NCBI GenBank assembly: GCA_003577005.1
Contig: QEUW01000485.1
Coordinates: forward strand, 1 to 7,691
Reading direction: 5' to 3'
From: Chloroflexota bacterium
Lineage (GTDB): Bacteria > Chloroflexota > Anaerolineae > Caldilineales > Caldilineaceae
DNA: 7,691 bases
The notes beneath the pieces are model-generated. The model searched no databases. It saw nothing but the letters and a program-made list of their open reading frames with translations, and was not told the DNA's origin. The translations under genes were made by a program, and so were the position numbers. This document shows positions 2-7,678 of the stretch, piece by piece (positions within the stretch are counted from its first letter, which is position 1; every line of letters starts with the position of its first letter).

Positions 2-286
2 GTCGCCAGAGGCCACGATGTGACCCGAACGCCGGTGGATTGGATGCCGCTCGACGCCAGCGATGAACGACAACTCTTGGGGGCGACCGCGCAGGGCCGC
101 CTGATCTTTACGTTTAATATACGCGACTTCCTCGCCCTGGCTGATCGCCATCCCCACCATGGTGGTATTGTGCTGGCAGCGCAACGAACGTGGACGCTCA
201 CGCTCTTGCTCAGCGCGCTCGACCGGCTGCTCACGGAGACAACTGCTGCCGATTGGGTGGGCCAGGTGCGCTGGCTGAATGAATAG
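2..286 (+). CDS. DUF5615 PIN-like toxin-type protein, 5' end cut off
   Basis: The reading frame is open from the left edge (VARGHDVTRTPVDW...) to a TAG at 284-286, so the true start lies outside the window; the GTG at 20 is an internal Val codon. The visible piece fits the C-terminal two thirds of the DUF5615 PIN-like family. It has the 'ARGHDV' strand after the missing N-terminal 'DENL' segment, then 'ASDERQLLGATAQGRLIFTFNIRDF', where SDE and the final D of 'NIRDF' match conserved acidic positions, and then the 'HHGGIVLA' strand. Family members are small (about 110-120 residues) putative Mg-dependent RNases, usually paired with a DUF433 or similar antitoxin just upstream, here off the window. 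The family call is fairly secure. Toxin activity is inferred and the first catalytic Asp cannot be seen. Confidence 0.8.
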   Translation, partial: VARGHDVTRTPVDWMPLDASDERQLLGATAQGRLIFTFNIRDFLALADRHPHHGGIVLAAQRTWTLTLLLSALDRLLTETTAADWVGQVRWLNE

Positions 287-371: not shown

Positions 372-887
372 CTATTCCTGTCGCAGCGTCTGGAGGAAGG
401 CGTTGAAGCTGTAGCGCACGAGGATACTGGGCTCTTCAAAAGTAATTCAACCTGGCGAAGCCGAGTTCTATCGAGCGATCAACAGATAGTCGATTAACGG
501 CCGGTAGATCGAATTATCAATATGCTCCTGATACCAGGTTTCGTACGTGCCTTGATTCAAATGTTCTTCAATCTGGTGAGTTTCTTTCAGCAGCGTCCAC
601 AGATTATGGGTGGCCCGGTTACAGAAGCCGTCAATGCCGGTAGCCTGAAGGCCCTCGATACTGCTGTGCTGGCAAGCCGGGCAATCACAGGCGGCCAGTA
701 TCTCCCGCTCCTCCTGATCGGGCAAGCGACCACGCCAGCTACCCAGAATCGCCACCATCCGATCTCCTCGCCCTGGCAACTGGACAATGCCACGCGCCGC
801 CCGGTTGCGCCAACCGGACGAATCAGCCGAATCAATTCCTAATAAAGCAGCGAGATGCATGGTGGCGGTGCCGCCGAGCCCGGGCGT
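372..887 (-). pseudogene. tRNA-guanine transglycosylase-like (DpdA/TGT superfamily) gene, 3' remnant
   Basis: The minus frame open from 953 to the TAG at 468-470 contains a recognisable second half of a TGT-fold enzyme. 'GLGGTATMHLAALLGIDSAD' aligns with the TGT segment (M)GVG..DLLEAV..GVDMFD, so the last Asp (in 'IDSADS') matches the catalytic nucleophile. 'CDCPAC' followed 22 residues later by 'ATHNLW' matches the CxCxxC...H zinc site. The enzyme family exchanges guanine for a 7-deazaguanine base in RNA, or in DNA for DpdA. Homology stops around 881-887, next to a repeat, so the N-terminal half (about 200 residues in a normal 370-residue TGT) is gone. Beyond the stop at 468, coding-like sequence continues ('EEPSILVRYSFNAFLQTLRQ') to a second stop at 372-374, reached through an in-frame TAG and TGA or a pair of compensating frameshifts. 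An ATG at 858-860 could still start a 130-residue product. TGT superfamily is likely; DpdA-like rather than tRNA-acting is a guess. Confidence 0.72.
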
Positions 888-888
888 G

Positions 889-909
889 CATCCCGTGCCG
901 AGCGGAACC
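889..909 (+). repeat. 21-bp direct repeat, copy 2
   Basis: This is an exact copy of the word at 344-364, same orientation. It sits right where the homology of the transglycosylase remnant breaks off, so the repeat marks the truncation point. Nearby, within the remnant, GTGCCGCCGAG (869-879) partly resembles the repeat's GTGCCGAGCGG, a possible microhomology at the junction. Confidence 0.8.
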
Positions 910-958
910 CTGCCGGCTGCCCCTGCTAGGCTGCGCCCATCTGCGGTAGCCATGACTT

Positions 959-1018: not shown

Positions 1019-2884
1019 CTATTCAATCATCCGGAGTTTGCATGGTGTCGGATTGATAGCCACCAGAAGCGGCCGTGTCATGCTGGTTATCGAGACGATG
1101 GCTTGACCGGGTGCCAGGTTCGGTAGACGACTCCAAAGGCCCTCATTGATGCTACCAATCGAACGCTTCAGCCGGGAAACGACATTCACATCGGTAATCT
1201 TATGCAAAATGAAGTTGTTGATAAGGCCAAGTACCTCATCAGGCAGGTGTTGGGGTAACTGTGTCACAAAGAGCAATCCGATCCATCGTTTGCGACCGCG
1301 GCGTGCAATGCGGGCGACTTGCTCAAACAGGTTCTGCATCTTGGCGATCCGATCGCGCGAAAGAAACTCATGAGCCTCCTCGATAATAATCATCACAGGG
1401 GTTGGTTCCTGACTTGTCTTGGATGCATTGGTATATGCATCCTCCTGTTCGAGCTGGATTCCGCGCAGCACATTAGAGATTACCAGATTGTTAATGATGG
1501 TCGAATCGGTATCACTCAAATCTATAATCGACACTACTCCCGGCTGAATGAGCGCGTTAAAAGGAATTGGCTGTGCATTCCTGCTGTCAAATACACCGGT
1601 CCGCTGAAGCCGCCACAGCTTGCCAAGTAGCGCTTTCCAACTGATTTCGTTGTTGGTCTGTACTTGGGCAACTCGCTGGCGAATCACCGACTTGGCTGCG
1701 TCGGTCTTGAATGAAGCGTTGAAAGGGTCTGCGTCGGTCTTCGTCAGGTGTGACAAGAAAAATCCTGCTATGTCGATGAGATGTGACAGCGTCATTTTTG
1801 GGTAACCTGTCTCAAACTCATTAAGTTCCAAAATACTCCGTTCCTCTTGGGTGTTATTCTTAGCAGGAAAGATGCCCAAATCGCGTAACACGAGTTTGGT
1901 AGTATCGTATGCTTTGAAAAAGCGATCAACTTGCGCTTCGGAAAGATCCATAATCTCGGCAGCTGCATACGGCGACAAGCTTGAAAAGTCCAAACGGAAG
2001 GCCTGGGTAGGTGTCGGTGCCGTAGCCGTAGTTTCACGTCCGACCAAGTGATAAGCATGGACATTTGGCACTCCTCTGGGCTTCCGATTCAATCTTTCCA
2101 GGAGGCGAACCATGGCCTTGTCTTCGGCCGGTAATCCGATTTCAGTGTACTCACCTTCAGTGTCGATTAGGATCGTCGCAATCCCTGCCTTTTGAAACTC
2201 TGATACTAGCCCTGACACCGTGGTGGATTTGCCACCGCCCGTCGTGCCAAGCACCCCCACATGGCGCGGTAGCACAGACTTGCGCTTGGCAGGAATTTGT
2301 ACTTCCATGTTTTCGAAGCCGACGGCCCAACCTAAACTAAGGTCACTCTCAAGTCCGAGTAGGCTGCGCGTCTCTCCATCGGAAAGTGCGAATACTGGGC
2401 TGTTCGGAAGCGGTCGAAACCGTGGTGGTTGTAACGTACCGTCCACTTCCTCACCCAGAATCTCCACTTGAACACGACCGTGATATTTGGGCATAAACAT
2501 AGCGCCCCGAACCGTCGTGGTTACGACGATTGGCGCATCGGCTCTGAGGCCATCCGGCTCTGCGAAGGGTCCTTGTACTACTACGCCTAAATACTGTCGG
2601 CCATCACCACCTTTCTCCTTCGAGCGGCTCTTGATTCGAACCAACGATTGTGATGGCAGCTTGGCTATCCCATCAGCAGGCATTAGAACGGTTATCGTAT
2701 GATCTTTGCTTGTTGGTGTGTCGAACATGGTTCGACCAATAGATCCTTTGTACTCCTCTGCTTCCTCAAGTTCACCACCAGCGATGTCTATTTCCTCAGC
2801 CAGGAGATCTGTAAATTGGAGCGGCATTTGTTGGACAACATCACTGCCGTGGCCGTTTGTTGAGTTGCTTGTCTCTGTTGTCAT
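1019..2884 (-). CDS. HerA-type hexameric DNA-translocating ATPase (DUF87/HAS-barrel)
   Basis: This is a cytosolic FtsK/HerA-superfamily ATPase that would form a hexamer, pump duplex DNA and power a partner nuclease. In 621-residue numbering, a beta-rich N-terminal part (about 45-200) fits the HAS barrel. Walker A 'GTTGGGKSTT' lies at about 213-222, followed by 'ILIDTEGEY' (238-246). Walker B 'VMIIIEEAHEFL' is at about 497-508, with the two acidic residues expected for HerA. 'ARRGRKRWIGLLFVTQLPQ' (527-545) supplies the arginine-rich and sensor region. The length is at the upper end for HerA, because of an acidic N-terminal extension and an inserted helical segment (300-440). I start at the ATG at 2884, which has AAGGA 8 bases upstream; an in-frame ATG at 2893 would have its ribosome site too close. 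It lies 17 bp behind the NurA-like gene and is last in the array, with a hairpin after the stop. The family is secure; a defence role is inferred from context. Confidence 0.9.
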   Translation of the reverse strand: MTTETSNSTNGHGSDVVQQMPLQFTDLLAEEIDIAGGELEEAEEYKGSIGRTMFDTPTSKDHTITVLMPADGIAKLPSQSLVRIKSRSKEKGGDGRQYLGVVVQGPFAEPDGLRADAPIVVTTTVRGAMFMPKYHGRVQVEILGEEVDGTLQPPRFRPLPNSPVFALSDGETRSLLGLESDLSLGWAVGFENMEVQIPAKRKSVLPRHVGVLGTTGGGKSTTVSGLVSEFQKAGIATILIDTEGEYTEIGLPAEDKAMVRLLERLNRKPRGVPNVHAYHLVGRETTATAPTPTQAFRLDFSSLSPYAAAEIMDLSEAQVDRFFKAYDTTKLVLRDLGIFPAKNNTQEERSILELNEFETGYPKMTLSHLIDIAGFFLSHLTKTDADPFNASFKTDAAKSVIRQRVAQVQTNNEISWKALLGKLWRLQRTGVFDSRNAQPIPFNALIQPGVVSIIDLSDTDSTIINNLVISNVLRGIQLEQEDAYTNASKTSQEPTPVMIIIEEAHEFLSRDRIAKMQNLFEQVARIARRGRKRWIGLLFVTQLPQHLPDEVLGLINNFILHKITDVNVVSRLKRSIGSINEGLWSRLPNLAPGQAIVSITSMTRPLLVAINPTPCKLRMIE

Positions 2885-2901
2885 GTGAATCATCCTTACT
2901 G

Positions 2902-4113
2902 TTATTGGCGCGTCTCACGCTCACCAAGATAGCGAAAAGGTTGTCCCGCATCTGCATAAGCCATCTGTACGGATGTCATGAATGTATCAGCCCCAAACAC
3001 ACTTGAACACACTGTATCGGCGAGATCGATCAACATCGGGAACCCCCGGTGTTCTTGCAAGATACTGTCAGCCATTGCAATGTGTGCGGCTAGTTCAGCG
3101 CAGTCTTCATGGGCGTAAAACAGATAGGGTGGCGAGCCTTCCCAAACACGGAATAAGCCAACGACGATCTTGGGAGCCACGTTAGCGCAAAAATCCCTCA
3201 TCACGGGGCGTGTCTCTCGATAGCCACCAGTTTCGATCATTCGCTCAATCTCCGGCTGCAGTGACTGAAGAATAGCGAACTCTAGTGGATTGAGCGCGTT
3301 TCCAATCGTTAACCAATGCCGTTTCGCAGGGGCGCTCGGTACAAAGACAAATCGCTTGTAGTCGACATACCACTTGATCAAATCTAGAGCCACATGCAAT
3401 CTGGCCACCTTCGATGACCATAACCCAGTAAGAAGTTCATAGGGAGCAGGGCTACCATGCCCCATACGCCAGGACGCTGTAGATTTCTCTTTTAAGATTG
3501 CGCGCTCGGCGTAGGCCATGATGCCACGTCGGGCTAACTCGCTCATGCGATCAGAGCCAATGCCTTGCGCCTCTCGGTTCTCACGGCGCTCAAGAATTGC
3601 CAGCGCTTCGGCTACGGGATCTGCGAGTTTAGCTCTGAGATCTCGTCGAAACAATCGATGTGCCCAAGAGCCTTGCTCCCCATTGTAGGATACCAAGCAC
3701 ACTCCGATTTGCGTGATGGTGAGCGGGATCGTGTCATGCACAACATTGGTGCCATCACATGCTTCAACGCCACCGTTAAAGAGAAGGCCTTTGTGAATTT
3801 TTTCTAGATCGGCGGGTTTGGCCTGATAAACCCCTGCATTTTTGGGAGCTCCAATACCACTGCGTATTTTGCCGAACACGACTTCACGCACTGTCTTACG
3901 GACATCGTCCTCCTGTGCGAGTGCCTCCTCTACTTCTTGTTCTAGCCGCCCATATGCGGACAGTAGGTCACCGCCCTGCATCCAAGTCTCTAGGTCAAGA
4001 ACCTTGGCGAGAGATTCGCCGTGTGTGGCTTCGAATTCACTATCTTGCGGGCCGGCCCAGGCGACTTCTTGATGAATATCGGATAGTAGGTTCATTGAGG
4101 CTGATTCGTCCAT
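2902..4113 (-). CDS. NurA-like nuclease-domain protein, HerA partner
   Basis: This 403-residue protein is placed as NurA-like by weak motifs plus position. NurA is the Mn-dependent 5'-3' exonuclease that binds the HerA hexamer. 'GVEACDGTN' (115-123) fits NurA motif I (DGS/T), with D120 as metal ligand. 'MAYAERAILKE' (199-209) fits the Y-x-E helix of motif II. 'YELLTG' (225-230) lies where the 'LLDGS' strand normally follows, but without its Asp. 'GFPMLIDLAD' (357-366) resembles the C-terminal 'GYPxxLxxAH' motif with Asp in place of His. About 100 residues of helical, acidic sequence precede the domain, so the protein is longer than many NurA proteins. The ATG at 4113 has a strong AAGGAGA site. 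It sits directly upstream of the HerA gene, the usual pairing. Nuclease activity is likely but not proven, given the altered residues. Confidence 0.68.
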   Translation of the reverse strand: MDESASMNLLSDIHQEVAWAGPQDSEFEATHGESLAKVLDLETWMQGGDLLSAYGRLEQEVEEALAQEDDVRKTVREVVFGKIRSGIGAPKNAGVYQAKPADLEKIHKGLLFNGGVEACDGTNVVHDTIPLTITQIGVCLVSYNGEQGSWAHRLFRRDLRAKLADPVAEALAILERRENREAQGIGSDRMSELARRGIMAYAERAILKEKSTASWRMGHGSPAPYELLTGLWSSKVARLHVALDLIKWYVDYKRFVFVPSAPAKRHWLTIGNALNPLEFAILQSLQPEIERMIETGGYRETRPVMRDFCANVAPKIVVGLFRVWEGSPPYLFYAHEDCAELAAHIAMADSILQEHRGFPMLIDLADTVCSSVFGADTFMTSVQMAYADAGQPFRYLGERETRQ

Positions 4114-4118
4114 TGCTG

Positions 4119-4125
4119 TCTCCTT
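4119..4125 (-). promoter_or_regulatory. Strong ribosome binding site of the NurA-like gene
   Basis: AAGGAGA on the minus strand lies 5 bases before the ATG at 4111-4113. It is the clearest Shine-Dalgarno of the array and sits in its only sizeable gap (4114-4193). This suggests the NurA-HerA pair is translated independently of the genes in front. The gap also holds a CCGG-N5-CCGG mini-hairpin but no convincing promoter. Confidence 0.7.
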
Positions 4126-4193
4126 GATAATATCTCGTGCTTCTATCTACTGTTCCGGCACTACCGGGCAAAGTTCGACAGATCGATGAGATT

Positions 4194-4934
4194 TCACCGA
4201 AGACCAAGCGACTCCACCCACGACGGGCCTTTTCCAATTTCTGCCAACAGTGAACCCGCATAGCCTGCCGCAACTGTGACTGGTAGACCAAAGGATCGGC
4301 GAAGGACCTCTTTAGTCTTTTGAAGGCGTACAGGATAAGGTTCGGACAAAAAATCTAGTAGCGGGAAAACTGCCTGCGATGGGGCAAGTAAGGCAAGGGC
4401 AAGACGGTCAGCACGGTTCTCAGCTTTCCAAATGTGATCACTGTTTGCAGATTCACTGCGTTCCATTAGAGACTGGTAAGGCCCCACCTTGGTATCACTC
4501 AAGAGCGCGTGAACGCGTTCAGTGACTGTCAACGGGCGAATGCCGTCCAGTGCCTCTGCAATAGTGGGACCAAACTTACCAATTGCTGTTCTACGTGGAA
4601 GCCAGTAGTCACATAGAAAATGAGCGATCTCGTGAGCTATCGTGATGCGCTGCTCATCAGTTGGATCGGAGCCATCCACGAATAGGACTCCTTGTCCTGA
4701 CTGCGCTATAAGGCAACCTCTGACAGACCGGCTTTCACACCCGAAGACAAAATTGTTACCCCGCTGCTGTATCCATCGCTCGACATCCCAAAGCCGCAAA
4801 CGTGGTAGCTTAACCAAAGCGATCGGCAATGCTAATGCCAGAGGTCGTTCTAGATTCCGGGGAAACGGTTCCTCTTCTCCGCATAGATGCCAGAATAAGT
4901 CCAATGCCTCCTGCTCAAGACCAGCTAGCTTCAT
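4194..4934 (-). CDS. ImmA/IrrE-family zinc metallopeptidase
   Basis: This is a 246-residue soluble protease-type protein of the COG2856 ImmA/IrrE family. The zinc motif 'HEIAHFLCDY' (101-110) gives H101, E102 and H105. 'AENRADRLALALLAP' (171-185) matches the E..A..FA..LL.P helix that supplies the third ligand, probably E172. Known relatives cleave a DNA-binding partner to relieve repression (ImmA on ImmR in ICEBs1; IrrE on DdrO in Deinococcus). A C-terminal tail, 'FGLPVTVAAGYAGSLL', fits the usual helix after the core. The start codon overlaps the stop of the sigma/XRE gene by four bases (ATGA), so the two are translationally coupled, as expected for a protease and its target. GGAG lies upstream of the ATG. 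The family call is very secure; the substrate is inferred from coupling. Confidence 0.92.
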   Translation of the reverse strand: MKLAGLEQEALDLFWHLCGEEEPFPRNLERPLALALPIALVKLPRLRLWDVERWIQQRGNNFVFGCESRSVRGCLIAQSGQGVLFVDGSDPTDEQRITIAHEIAHFLCDYWLPRRTAIGKFGPTIAEALDGIRPLTVTERVHALLSDTKVGPYQSLMERSESANSDHIWKAENRADRLALALLAPSQAVFPLLDFLSEPYPVRLQKTKEVLRRSFGLPVTVAAGYAGSLLAEIGKGPSWVESLGLR

Positions 4935-6019
4935 AGAGCCTGCTCCGGTTTCGACGCGTCGGATTCTTCAGATCTATCCATTTCTTCGTTGGTGTCTTGG
5001 TCAGTTTCAGTTCGATCCCGCGCTGCAGCCAGCCATCCGAGTCTCGTTGCAATCGGCTGAGATAAGGCCTCTTGAGATGAATCTGCTTCAGTTACCGGAC
5101 GGATCGCGCCGAGTGCATCAACCTGATTGATCATTTGTGCAAGTTGAGCCGCATCGCAGCCGACGTATGCGGCGATATGTCTAACTTGGTCGGCAAAGTT
5201 GGGTCTGTCGGCAGTGGGACGCTTACACAGTGCCAACCGCGTATACATCGCAGACGAGATGCCAAGAAGATCAGCCAGGGCTGATTCCCCGAGTCCTTCC
5301 TGTTCACGATACCGGTTCAGCACACTTGCCATAAACTGGCTATCCGTCGTCAAACGTTGGGCGAATCGGGCCAGATAGCTCTCAGTTTCTGAGGATAGGG
5401 CTTGATTAGTCATCTTGTTCAATCGCCGAACGAGTCGATCCTTGTTCCGTTTTACCTCGCGCGCCTGTTCGTCGGGCGGCAAATGTGAGATACCCAGGAG
5501 TGTTGCATACTCTTCAGTGGCGCGAACGTTGTCCATCATGAGCAGAACGATTTCTTGGTCTATCGGGTCGGGTAGGAGCTCTGCCAAGTGTCCCCACACA
5601 GGGGAAGTATGATCCAGCGCATATTCGTCAATATTAGGCATACTACTATCTGGTATTTCTTGTTCCACACCAAATGCATCAAGTTCGACAATTCTGCCGA
5701 ATTTTGATAAATCGCTTCTGGCTCCTTGTTTCCTGAGATGGTTGAGAAGATCACCCTGAGCAGACATGCGGAGATAACTATCGAGAGGTAGTTTGGAGGG
5801 ATCATATTTCTCCGGGGCGGAGAGATAGTTCATCATGGCGTCGTGTGCTGCCATCTCAACAAGATGGTCGTCCTCGACGTTTCGGAAGCTGGCCTTCAGA
5901 CGTACAATCAAGCGTGGCAGGTGAAGCTCAGCGAGTTGCGCCGACGCTGTTAGATCGCCAGCCAACAACCTCTTGTGCAGTTGTAGTGAGCCTTCAGGTA
6001 CATCGATTTCCGGAGGCAT
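4931..6019 (-). CDS. Sigma-70-like factor fused to XRE-like HTH domain
   Basis: This is a 362-residue putative transcription regulator. Residues about 13-100 match sigma region 2: 'AAHDAMMNYLSAPEKYDP' followed by 'LDSYLRMSAQGDLLNHLRKQ' mirrors the ECF pattern of a helix, 'P.(R/K)(F/Y)DP', and then '.L..(I/L)A...L.(D/N).LR(R/K)'. Residues about 143-205 ('LLPDPIDQEIVLLMMDNV...EYATLLGIS') look like a region-4-type helix-turn-helix with a basic helix after it. Residues about 227-297 ('EGLGESALADLLGISSAMYT...IAAYVGCDAAQLAQMI') fit an XRE-like HTH. The last 30 residues are acidic and low-complexity. The ATG at 6019 lies 9 bp after the methyltransferase stop and has no visible Shine-Dalgarno, so coupling is likely. 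It overlaps the ImmA-type gene by 4 bp and is its probable target. It may activate or repress the array. The sigma and HTH assignments come from pattern reading, without an alignment. Confidence 0.75.
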   Translation of the reverse strand: MPPEIDVPEGSLQLHKRLLAGDLTASAQLAELHLPRLIVRLKASFRNVEDDHLVEMAAHDAMMNYLSAPEKYDPSKLPLDSYLRMSAQGDLLNHLRKQGARSDLSKFGRIVELDAFGVEQEIPDSSMPNIDEYALDHTSPVWGHLAELLPDPIDQEIVLLMMDNVRATEEYATLLGISHLPPDEQAREVKRNKDRLVRRLNKMTNQALSSETESYLARFAQRLTTDSQFMASVLNRYREQEGLGESALADLLGISSAMYTRLALCKRPTADRPNFADQVRHIAAYVGCDAAQLAQMINQVDALGAIRPVTEADSSQEALSQPIATRLGWLAAARDRTETDQDTNEEMDRSEESDASKPEQAL

Positions 6020-6028
6020 CAGGTGATT

Positions 6029-7303
6029 TTACCGCTTCTGAAAGACAAGAACATACTCGGTGCTCATGCGGGTTCCAAAGGCACTCATATAGGGCATGAC
6101 CCGCCTTCGCTCGTTGATCGTCCGTACATGTTTCTCTATCAGATGCAAATTATGGGCTTGACCCAGTTCGACTAACACATCTTGAGTTGGGATAGCAATC
6201 TTCCGGATATGGGAGGGGCAAACTACAATAACAGCGTGTCGCTTGTCTTTGAGCACGCGCGCAATCTCACTCAACGCTCTATCCATGTCTACAAAATACC
6301 TGTGACAGAGCTTGGCCTGACGCATGCAGTTTGCTGCAAGCTCAGCTAAGATAGTTGGCGTCTGGCTCAGCTGAGTGAGTCTCGGATCAATTTGTAGTGG
6401 GCCAAGTAATCTGCCTTGCTGGCTGCCAATGTAACTTGACGCGTTTGTTCGATAATCGTCCAAATTGATACTTAAGGCGGCCTGCATCCAGGGGATAGCC
6501 AAAAAGTGTGCTCGTGGATAATCTAAAGCTGTTGCATAAGGAGGTGACGTGAATACGAGGTCGACAGATTCGTCTTTCAACTCGAGCTGACGCGCATCAC
6601 CTAAGCGAGCTTCTGTCCAACTCGATCTAGGGGCCGCCGCACACAGATTGCGAAACTCAACCATCTGTCTGCGCATGATTTTCGTTCTCGACGCAAAACG
6701 TGCAAGTACATCTGGCTGTTGAGGGTGCGAGTAGTGGTGGTGGCGAGAGTGAATAATGTCTCGTGCATTTGCTACGCTAGTTCGAGCAATAATTAATGAT
6801 GAAAAAGCGACCCACAAGAAGTCTTTAACGGGTCGAGGGAACGGATGTGCCGCAATGTGATAGGATAAGATAGTAAGCGCAGTTGACACTTCTGGATCAA
6901 ACCAATAGTCACGATTATGGAAATCTGGAAGTGAATAGCGAGAAGTGAGTTCAGCCGGAGCCTCTGCCGACTTTATTAGGGCAAAATCCGCTGCAGACTC
7001 CCGCAAGATGAGTCCCGCTGCTGCCTCGATTTCGGCATCATCTACGATCTGTGATTTCACCTGTGCAATGAGTCGAGCGAGGGGGTCAAAGTCATACCCG
7101 ATTGCATTGCGGCCTTTTATACGTGCCTCTACAAGTGCAGTGCCGCTACCAACCATAGGGTCGAGGATCAGTTCACCAGGTTGCGAGTAGTGGTCCATCG
7201 CATAGCCAACAAGTTGCGGTGGACATTTCGCTGCAAACGCATGCAGACCGTGTGTGGCATAAAGTGTGTTTTGGTTGTCAAAGTTGAGTTCGAGTTTTTC
7301 CAT
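6029..7303 (-). CDS. DNA N4/N6-type methyltransferase with TSPPY motif
   Basis: This 424-residue protein transfers methyl groups from S-adenosylmethionine to an amino group in DNA. The SAM site 'LILDPMVGSGTALVEA' (45-60) is followed by 'GYDFDPLA' (69-76). The catalytic loop 'VDLVFTSPPYATALDY' (247-262) follows about 190 residues later. C-terminal 'LSEIARVLKDKRHAVIVVCP' (344-363) is the usual strand after the active site. The order SAM site then PPY marks an alpha- or gamma-type enzyme, with 85-235 as candidate target-recognition region. TSPPY is typical of N4-cytosine methylases, but N6-adenine cannot be excluded. It opens the five-gene array. The ATG at 7303 has no good Shine-Dalgarno; the in-frame TTG at 7309 is an alternative. 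In this context it probably marks self DNA so that the nuclease part spares it, which is inference. RNA methylases share the SAM site but usually lack TSPPY. Confidence 0.87.
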   Translation of the reverse strand: MEKLELNFDNQNTLYATHGLHAFAAKCPPQLVGYAMDHYSQPGELILDPMVGSGTALVEARIKGRNAIGYDFDPLARLIAQVKSQIVDDAEIEAAAGLILRESAADFALIKSAEAPAELTSRYSLPDFHNRDYWFDPEVSTALTILSYHIAAHPFPRPVKDFLWVAFSSLIIARTSVANARDIIHSRHHHYSHPQQPDVLARFASRTKIMRRQMVEFRNLCAAAPRSSWTEARLGDARQLELKDESVDLVFTSPPYATALDYPRAHFLAIPWMQAALSINLDDYRTNASSYIGSQQGRLLGPLQIDPRLTQLSQTPTILAELAANCMRQAKLCHRYFVDMDRALSEIARVLKDKRHAVIVVCPSHIRKIAIPTQDVLVELGQAHNLHLIEKHVRTINERRRVMPYMSAFGTRMSTEYVLVFQKR

Positions 7304-7438: not shown

Positions 7439-7678
7439 TCACCCATGGCGGCGCAGGCTTTCGATCAGAGCAGAGACTTCAGGGGGTGCCTCCAGGCGTT
7501 CCAGATCTCGGCGCAGAGCCTGGCCGACATAAGCGCGAATGAGGGGTTGGTAACCGGAAAAGCCCAAGTGGGGCGCAATACGCTTGAGATCATCCACCAC
7601 ATCTTTCGGCATGCGCAGGCTGATGGTCGTCATTGGGCGCTCTTTTTGCAGCCGTTTATTGAGGTCAGTGATTTTCAT
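7439..7678 (-). CDS. CopG/BrnA-like ribbon-helix-helix antitoxin
   Basis: This 79-residue protein has a basic N-terminal part (1-15), then 'TTISLRMPKDVVDDLKRIA' (17-35), which is the beta strand and first helix of a ribbon-helix-helix domain. 'GYQPLIRAYVGQALRRDL' (42-59) is the second helix and extension. Such proteins dimerise, bind operator DNA through the paired strands and neutralise a small toxin. In BrnT/BrnA-type modules the toxin gene comes just before the antitoxin, which here would be beyond the right edge. The ATG at 7678 is preceded by GAAAGAG six bases upstream; an internal ATG at codon 16 (7633) would still encode the whole fold. It ends 135 bp before the methyltransferase and is probably a separate unit. 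The fold is secure; the toxin family is not visible. Confidence 0.83.
   Translation of the reverse strand: MKITDLNKRLQKERPMTTISLRMPKDVVDDLKRIAPHLGFSGYQPLIRAYVGQALRRDLERLEAPPEVSALIESLRRHG

Follow-up and report, generated by a model that had tools for sequence, protein, structure and literature searches.

A NurA-HerA operon with its own sigma factor, XRE-like protein and M78 protease: a candidate inducible immune module of bacteria

The subject of this study is a gene cluster on a stretch of 7,691 nucleotides (referred to as the window) from a Chloroflexota bacterium (assembly GCA_003577005.1, contig QEUW01000485.1). We found that genes for an ECF-type sigma factor, an XRE-like protein, an M78 metallopeptidase, a protein of NurA fold and a HerA-type DNA translocase, preceded in the window by a DNA methyltransferase gene, form a conserved operon, in which promoter-like sites recur within the sigma gene and ahead of the NurA-like gene. 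The operon is probably a self-contained, inducible DNA-degrading immune module, which would be kept off until needed.

A conserved five-gene core

The window contains five minus-strand open reading frames (ORFs), at the positions already given in a first-pass annotation of the same sequence, with gaps of 9, -4, 80 and 8 bp (the last becomes 17 bp if HerA begins at the second ATG, as that annotation had chosen). The following features were distinguished:

6029..7303 (ORF from 7309), minus strand: DNA methyltransferase of the N4/N6 type with DPxxGSG and SPPY motifs; optional partner gene
4931..6019, minus strand: ECF-type sigma factor (about the first 199 residues) fused to an XRE-like protein in one ORF
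5663..5690, minus strand: sigma-promoter-like site within the sigma gene, TGTCGAACTT-N14-GGAA, which codes for VEL in a low-confidence linker
4931..5413, minus strand: XRE-like protein, likely native ATG retained at 5413, with a C-terminal LxAAR(D) motif (LAAARD in the window)
4194..4934, minus strand: M78 metallopeptidase (IrrE/ImmA/CapP type) with a HEIAH motif
4153..4180, minus strand: sigma-promoter-like site ahead of the NurA-like gene, TGTCGAACTT-N14-GGAA, ending about 40 bases 5' of the start codon
2902..4113, minus strand: probable nuclease of NurA fold, from a sequence family of its own
1019..2893, minus strand: HerA-type DNA translocase

The earlier domain readings hold for N6_N4_Mtase, Peptidase_M78 and HerA/DUF87 (Pfam) and, by fold, for NurA. 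The coherent operon proposed in that annotation is also borne out by other genomes: with family-built profiles, sigma, XRE, M78, NurA-like and HerA genes were found on one strand and in that order in 59 of 68 related loci, a grouping far beyond chance. Seven of the nine incomplete loci (L030, L037, L046, L059, L060, L063 and L064) end at contig ends; L033 has no separately detected XRE gene, and L057 comprises a NurA-like gene and a HerA piece only.

The NurA-like family has 3107 members among 7998 candidates scored. A scan with a conserved-peptide pattern yielded 66 loci in the species-genome collection and two in viral contigs, the latter being the 2 of 84 pattern-matching stretches that encode a relative. 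A plasmid or phage origin was rejected: tblastn with the NurA-like protein gave no match in plasmid or phage collections. The closest named relatives are Anaerolineales (79% identity of the NurA-like protein), and the record titles of the loci name Chloroflexi, Acidobacteria, Planctomycetota, Bacteroidota (e.g. Saprospiraceae and Daejeonella), Actinomycetota, Bacillota, Nitrospirales, Calidithermus, Myxococcaceae and Gammaproteobacteria, with metagenome bins common among them.

The presence of the system is patchy (19 of 400 genomes in the phylum of G002, 2 of 395 in that of G005), and a separate classical NurA is present in 9 of 22 host genomes, on which grounds we reject the view that HerA and the NurA-like protein are the housekeeping pair of their genome. 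The XRE-like protein follows the system: strong matches occur in 18 of the 19 NurA-like-positive genomes (G044, very divergent, is the exception), compared with 3 of 381 NurA-like-negative genomes at E <1e-10 (G047, G342 and G385) and four more at weaker values. The two surveys apparently covered the same 400 genomes, as their handles are the same.

In one of these genomes (G095; L140 and L148) the NurA-like and HerA genes lie on one contig, an XRE homologue lies on another, and sigma, XRE and M78 genes are not in the fetched stretch; the regulatory part of the system may therefore be separable.

Sigma factor and XRE-like protein as two genes

In the first-pass annotation sigma and XRE were read as one regulator gene. 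The domain content of this reading stands, in that Sigma70_r2 and an XRE-like helix-turn-helix (HTH) are matched, both below the Pfam cut-offs; the single gene does not, since sigma and XRE each have an ORF of their own wherever the pair was detected in a related locus, and all 15 sigma homologues found (200-216 aa) lack an XRE part. P0121, the closest sigma relative, matches 56% of the window ORF at 98% identity, stops before the XRE part and has a tail that the window still encodes in another frame. The two frames are joined because about 28 bases, relative to P0121, are absent at 5400-5450 (minus strand). This comparison points to an assembly error, or to a deletion allele peculiar to this locus, as the origin of the fusion.

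The AlphaFold2 model of P0121 (pLDDT 85.3) has a sigma fold with sigma2 and sigma4 domains, as in ECF sigma factors, and the 50 structure matches listed for it (VIA) are all sigma chains by title; these lists, for sigma as for the NurA-like protein below, do not exclude a family that is missing from them. In 52 of 64 XRE proteins the motif LxAAR directly precedes a variable tail, and several of the remaining ones have close variants of it (for example FLAARD); the motif is a candidate cut or contact site.

The M78 protease

The M78 protease is matched by Pfam Peptidase_M78 (4.1e-6) and PADLOC capP (4.4e-7), and its profile matches the solved chains of IrrE (0.0022) and CapP (0.0088) weakly. 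Residues H101, E102, H105 and E172 are kept in all 50 aligned relatives, giving the HExxH motif of the CapH-CapP and IrrE-DdrO controllers. Background on known systems, here and below, draws on passages of PMC12839542, PMC10853773, PMC10904395, PMC13373217, PMC6180224, PMC9960219, PMC8616872, PMC10013973, PMC11291478 and PMC12977600. According to these passages, IrrE/PprI and CapP are stimulated by single-stranded DNA and cleave HTH repressors (DdrO and CapH are such partners) that control damage or immune operons, IrrE/PprI serving as a damage sensor. The earlier view of the sigma/protease pair as the regulatory part of the operon is supported.

NurA-like protein and HerA

The NurA-like protein has no Pfam match up to E 1, including PF09376, and no sequence link to solved structures or to classical NurA (hhalign probability of 1% against eight classical NurA proteins). 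Structure comparison assigns it a NurA (RNase H-like) fold, with a model close to chain G of TdpAB. It is therefore a protein of NurA fold that forms a sequence family of its own, and a probable nuclease. Of the presumed catalytic acidic residues, the Asp of an ACDGT motif is kept in 48 of 55 relatives; where the second Asp would be expected, inspection by eye gives GHG.

Its partner is matched by Pfam DUF87 (2.5e-18) and HerA_C (3.1e-13) and by PADLOC mad8 (1e-19), and its best solved relatives are the HerA structures 4d2i and 9x1l. As in HerA translocases, the Walker A Lys (K222) is kept, in 45 of 46 aligned relatives, and so is EEAH (46 of 46). The pairing of a NurA-type protein with HerA, already claimed in the first pass, agrees with both the NurA fold and the Pfam matches to HerA; in the passages cited, HerA works with NurA in known complexes, and the pair resects DNA ends in Deinococcus and archaea.

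In five Bacteroidota loci (L035, L043, L051, L056 and L058) the NurA-like protein reads ACGS instead of ACDG, while the operon and its promoter-like sites are retained; L011 and L024-L026 retain the Asp. Two genomes that carry this system (L076, which was tested, and L079, seen by eye) also contain a classical NurA beside a HerA-like ATPase and a 370-aa methylase-like protein, which is another type of HerA-NurA-methylase row.

A promoter-like motif in two places of the operon

A shared element, TGTCGAACTT, a spacer of 13 or 14 and GGAA, was first read in the gaps between the protease and NurA-like genes. At the cut used it occurs in 46 of 67 loci, the window included, with spacers of 13 (30 loci), 14 (13), 12 (2) and 15 (1), often 40-70 bases before the NurA-like start codon. 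Its strict form is matched 58 times across 69 sequences (1.135 Mb), always in the orientation of the operon, compared with a mean of 0.4 in five Markov shuffles.

A matrix trained on 37 gap sites, in which one site can count at both spacings, gave 104 matches versus none in one shuffle. The gaps account for 50 of them (42 of 67 loci, mostly those used for training) and the sigma gene for 38 (36 of 66 loci); of the rest, 10 lie downstream of HerA, three upstream of sigma, two elsewhere in the core and one on the reverse strand. None of the three matches upstream of sigma precedes the upstream methylase gene. When 11 held-out loci were inspected (their closest known NurA-like protein being 28-78% identical), both sites were found at a score of at least 14 in eight, of which L135-L138 are close kin. 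From the 14 held-out regions, L128, L131 and L134 had been left out as the same contigs as L031, L028 and L030; among the 19 NurA-like-positive genomes, G002, G007, G009 and G272 were already in the set, and G262 gave a fragment only.

The intragenic copy codes for Val-Glu-Leu, in the linker of low model confidence that connects the two sigma domains. Val is present in 45 of 51 aligned loci, and its codon is GTC in 45 of 45 (12.6 expected); Glu is GAA in 31 of 42 (20.2 expected) and Leu is CTT or CTC in 26 of 27 (10.6 expected), the expectations for each locus being taken from its own HerA, NurA-like and M78 genes. Relatedness inflates these figures; the loci nonetheless span phyla. Given this codon bias, selection at the intragenic site appears to act on the DNA and not on the protein alone.

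The two copies also covary. The A or C that follows GTCG agrees in 41 of 44 pairs (Fisher 2.7e-5) at a looser cut, which admits doubtful sites, and in 48 of 52 (6.7e-8) when held-out pairs, four of them close kin, are added. With GTC in both copies the agreement is 39 of 42 (P 6e-4), and at a higher cut 34 of 35 (P 6e-4); the spacers (13 or 14) covary at P=0.0027. Rare -10 forms common to both copies were seen by eye in L002, L003 and L055. Among sigma4 residues that track the A/C variant, position 207 (P 1.8e-5) and K197R (P 4e-4) were the best; this correlation was not used because it is confounded by shared ancestry.

On sequence grounds the motif is read as a probable promoter of the sigma factor. 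A scan of the window for sigma70-type promoters gave one site, compared with 5.7 in shuffles. TGTCGA is an ECF42-like -35 element.

Neighbouring immune genes and the reach of the motif

The exact pattern has 27 matches in 14 of 22 whole genomes (~128 Mb). By coordinates, 19 of these lie in the locus of the system, and the other eight equal the eight matches of a backward control pattern; a genome-wide regulon was rejected, exact matches outside the locus being at background. One off-locus match, in Calidithermus, lies ~12 kb from the locus, where cas3 ends, with cas5 of a Csd1-type set following ~300 bases further on.

Genes of cas type lie no more than four ORFs from the core in 16 of 66 genome loci (L003, L004, L009, L013, L015, L022, L023, L031, L038, L040, L041, L042, L045, L050, L062 and L065), in 15 of them downstream on the same strand. 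Those of L050 are upstream on the other strand, and the call in L013 rests solely on similarity to a Cas6 match. Sites precede the likely cas4-cas1 start by ~73 bases in L038 and ~83 bases in L045; in L042 the distance is 315 bases, and in L041 the site precedes an unknown gene together with cas4-cas1. The L015 site is 7.8 kb away and that of L040 lies inside the cas3 ORF. Other sites were found 167 bases before the gene of a Multi_ubiq protein (bacterial ubiquitin-like; 12997-13700, L104) downstream of HerA in L051, and ~230 bases before a metallophosphoesterase gene (SbcD-like by reading) in L012; in L011, L035 and L043 the site after HerA is followed by no clear immune gene. The CRISPR-cas link, both promoter-like sites and the division of sigma and XRE into two genes had all been missed in the first pass.

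Among the loci examined, a 22-mer test detected a CRISPR array in L032 only (Calidithermus chliarophilus, 3068-8087); it has 71 repeats and ends directly upstream of the sigma gene.

The methylase as an optional partner

The methylase (Pfam N6_N4_Mtase 7.8e-15; PADLOC MTase_II 4.3e-47) has DP, GSG and SPPY in all 36 aligned relatives. A related gene is found close to 38 of 68 loci. It shares the strand of the operon in 26 loci where it lies upstream and in one where it lies downstream; in 11 it is on the opposite strand (six upstream, L064 among them by coordinates, and five downstream). For the other 30 loci, of which 17 extend 2 kb or more to either side, none was found in a search that covered this family in the vicinity of the locus, other families and the rest of the genome not being sought. 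Self-labelling by the methylase, which the first-pass annotation had taken as the core logic, therefore cannot define the system. A methylase accompanying the nuclease, as in type II restriction-modification, is a feature of the window locus and not of every locus; in many loci it may protect the host DNA.

Proposed mechanism and alternatives

In the mechanism that we propose, the XRE-like protein would keep the dedicated sigma factor, or its promoters, silent. The IrrE/CapP-type protease would be triggered, probably by single-stranded or damaged DNA, and cut the XRE-like protein, possibly at the C-terminal LxAARD. The freed sigma factor would then transcribe from TGTCGAACTT-N13/14-GGAA promoters: the intragenic one would feed XRE and protease, forming a feedback loop, and the one ahead of the NurA-like gene would feed NurA-HerA. 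HerA would thread DNA into the NurA-like nuclease, and invading DNA would be destroyed. The upstream methylase, for which no such site was detected, may guard host DNA in many loci; in others, neighbouring immune genes (cas4-cas1, for example) may be under the control of this promoter as well. The arrangement of genes and sites suggests early production of methylase and sigma, followed by that of XRE-protease and NurA-HerA from sigma-driven promoters.

We give about even chances to a broader form of this proposal, in which the regulatory genes are a portable switch: the protease would free sigma from an XRE-type inhibitor and so turn on NurA-HerA together with any downstream immune operon (type I CRISPR-Cas, ubiquitin-like or SbcD-type), and the promoter within the sigma gene itself would also control the inhibitor.

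Several observations weigh against the immune module. The sigma domains of the window score under the Pfam and NCBIfam cut-offs (Sigma70_r2 22.9 versus 24 bits; TIGR02937 24.9 versus 42.9), the Foldseek E value of sigma is 1.6e-3 at best, and no clear solved relative of the XRE-like protein was found. To these must be added the failed alignment of the NurA-like protein with classical NurA and the loss of what would, by analogy with NurA, be its first catalytic Asp: this residue is replaced in 7 of 55 relatives, five of them Bacteroidota, so that nuclease activity cannot be universal as proposed. As regards the DNA sites, the gap site falls below the cut in 21 of 67 loci, the held-out loci L133, L140 and L141 have neither site, the exact pattern is absent from 8 of 22 host genomes, and the A/C covariation fades at the highest cut (agreement in 23 of 24, only one pair being C/C; P 0.08). 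The loci with no related methylase nearby count on the same side.

The first alternative is that the operon serves a DNA-damage response, in which the protease senses single-stranded DNA and induces end resection by NurA-HerA, with no role against invaders. The resection and damage sensing described in the cited passages speak for it, as do UvrD, RNase_T and metallophosphoesterase (SbcD-like by reading) genes among the neighbours of some loci. We nevertheless think it unlikely, given the patchy distribution noted above, the methylase near 38 of 68 loci, the cas genes near 16 of 66 and the separate classical NurA in 9 of 22 hosts.

Alternatively, the motif might be an operator of the XRE-like protein and not a sigma promoter, in keeping with DdrO and CapH, the M78 partners that act as repressors in the cited passages. 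This is distinctly improbable: the motif is non-palindromic and gene-oriented (one reverse match among 104), its two halves stand at near-fixed spacing, its position before the NurA-like start is that of a sigma promoter, and the HTH of the XRE-like protein is weak.

In plain restriction-modification, self would be marked by a constitutive methylase, DNA lacking the mark would be degraded by NurA-HerA, and the regulators would do no more than delay the nuclease (a logic like that of TdpABC). This reading has some appeal in the same-strand upstream methylase of 26 of 68 loci, the other HerA-NurA-methylase row of L076 and, by eye, L079, and the closeness of the NurA-like model to TdpAB chain G; with no related methylase found near 30 of 68 loci (17 with 2 kb on both sides) and no DNA-specificity domain recognised in HerA or the NurA-like protein (Pfam, PADLOC, NCBIfam), it is the least credible of the three.

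Relation to known systems

Novelty was judged against PADLOC 2023, NCBIfam 2026 and the open-licence full-text literature. The PADLOC matches in the window (HerA, MTase_II and capP) make up no complete named system and no NCBIfam equivalog was reached by the window proteins, in agreement with the earlier statement that no named system has this exact composition. A search of open-licence PMC full text, a corpus outside which subscription papers and most preprints lie, found nothing that joins NurA, HerA, a sigma factor and an M78 protease. HerA-nuclease immunity, damage sensing of the CapH/CapP type and sigma control are each known, and no system joining them was found.

The operon resembles CapH-CapP and DdrO-IrrE (PprI) in that an HTH protein and an M78 protease are encoded beside the operon they would control, consistent with the capP match and the weak structure matches to IrrE and CapP. 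It differs from them in its added, dedicated sigma factor, in candidate control sites that are sigma-type promoters, and in an XRE family with AAR(D) conserved at the C-terminus and without a clear solved relative. With HerA-DUF4297 and HerA-SIR2 it shares a HerA translocase and a partner effector in an immune setting; here the partner has a NurA fold, the five-gene core has its own regulators, and neither SIR2 nor DUF4297 is matched by the window proteins in Pfam or PADLOC.

TdpABC, in which self DNA is said to be marked by modification, likewise combines a HerA-type motor with a NurA-like protein. In the present system the mark would be methylation, and optional, and the HerA profile is nearer to archaeal HerA (2.4e-30) than to TdpA (4e-12). 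MADS, reportedly a set of eight mad genes, is not matched: beyond HerA-mad8 and a weak methylase-mad2 match (2.8e-9), no other mad match is listed for the six window proteins (25 of 59 families being listed for the methylase).

In type III-E CRISPR a protease cleaves the inhibitor of a sigma factor, according to PMC11291478. Proteolysis freeing a sigma factor as an immune switch is what we propose here too, with an M78 protease in place of that enzyme and no RNA guide. Csa3a of Sulfolobus, as described in the passages cited, co-activates the cas adaptation genes and nurA/herA. One regulator would similarly couple NurA-HerA with cas1-type genes here, with a bacterial sigma factor instead of the archaeal Csa3 regulator; if the portable switch exists, it would be a bacterial counterpart of this coupling. 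The sites before cas4-cas1 make a link between NurA-HerA and CRISPR adaptation in bacteria directly testable. A sigma-type promoter kept inside the sigma coding sequence across phyla would be unusual, and it lets the predicted regulon be read from sequence alone.

Surroundings of the operon

The flanks of the operon had been described as toxin-antitoxin-type genes and a broken gene, of which the DUF5615 protein and the gene piece stand and the antitoxin match is weak. No tRNA and no Rfam RNA at gathering score were found in the window. The flanking features are:

2-286, plus strand: DUF5615 protein, presumably toxin-like
468-953, minus strand: C-terminal piece of a TGT-family (tRNA-guanine-transglycosylase) gene just downstream of HerA (Pfam TGT 2.6e-7, no NCBIfam match)
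7439-7678, minus strand: CopG/BrnA-type antitoxin, weak match

Two further loci deserve mention. In L006, a metagenome-assembled genome, the sigma and HerA genes are broken over several ORFs, by decay or sequencing error. In L033, from an Actinomycetes metagenome-assembled genome, a DpdB-family protein (NCBIfam 1.3e-151) is encoded at 6529-7866, upstream of the system.

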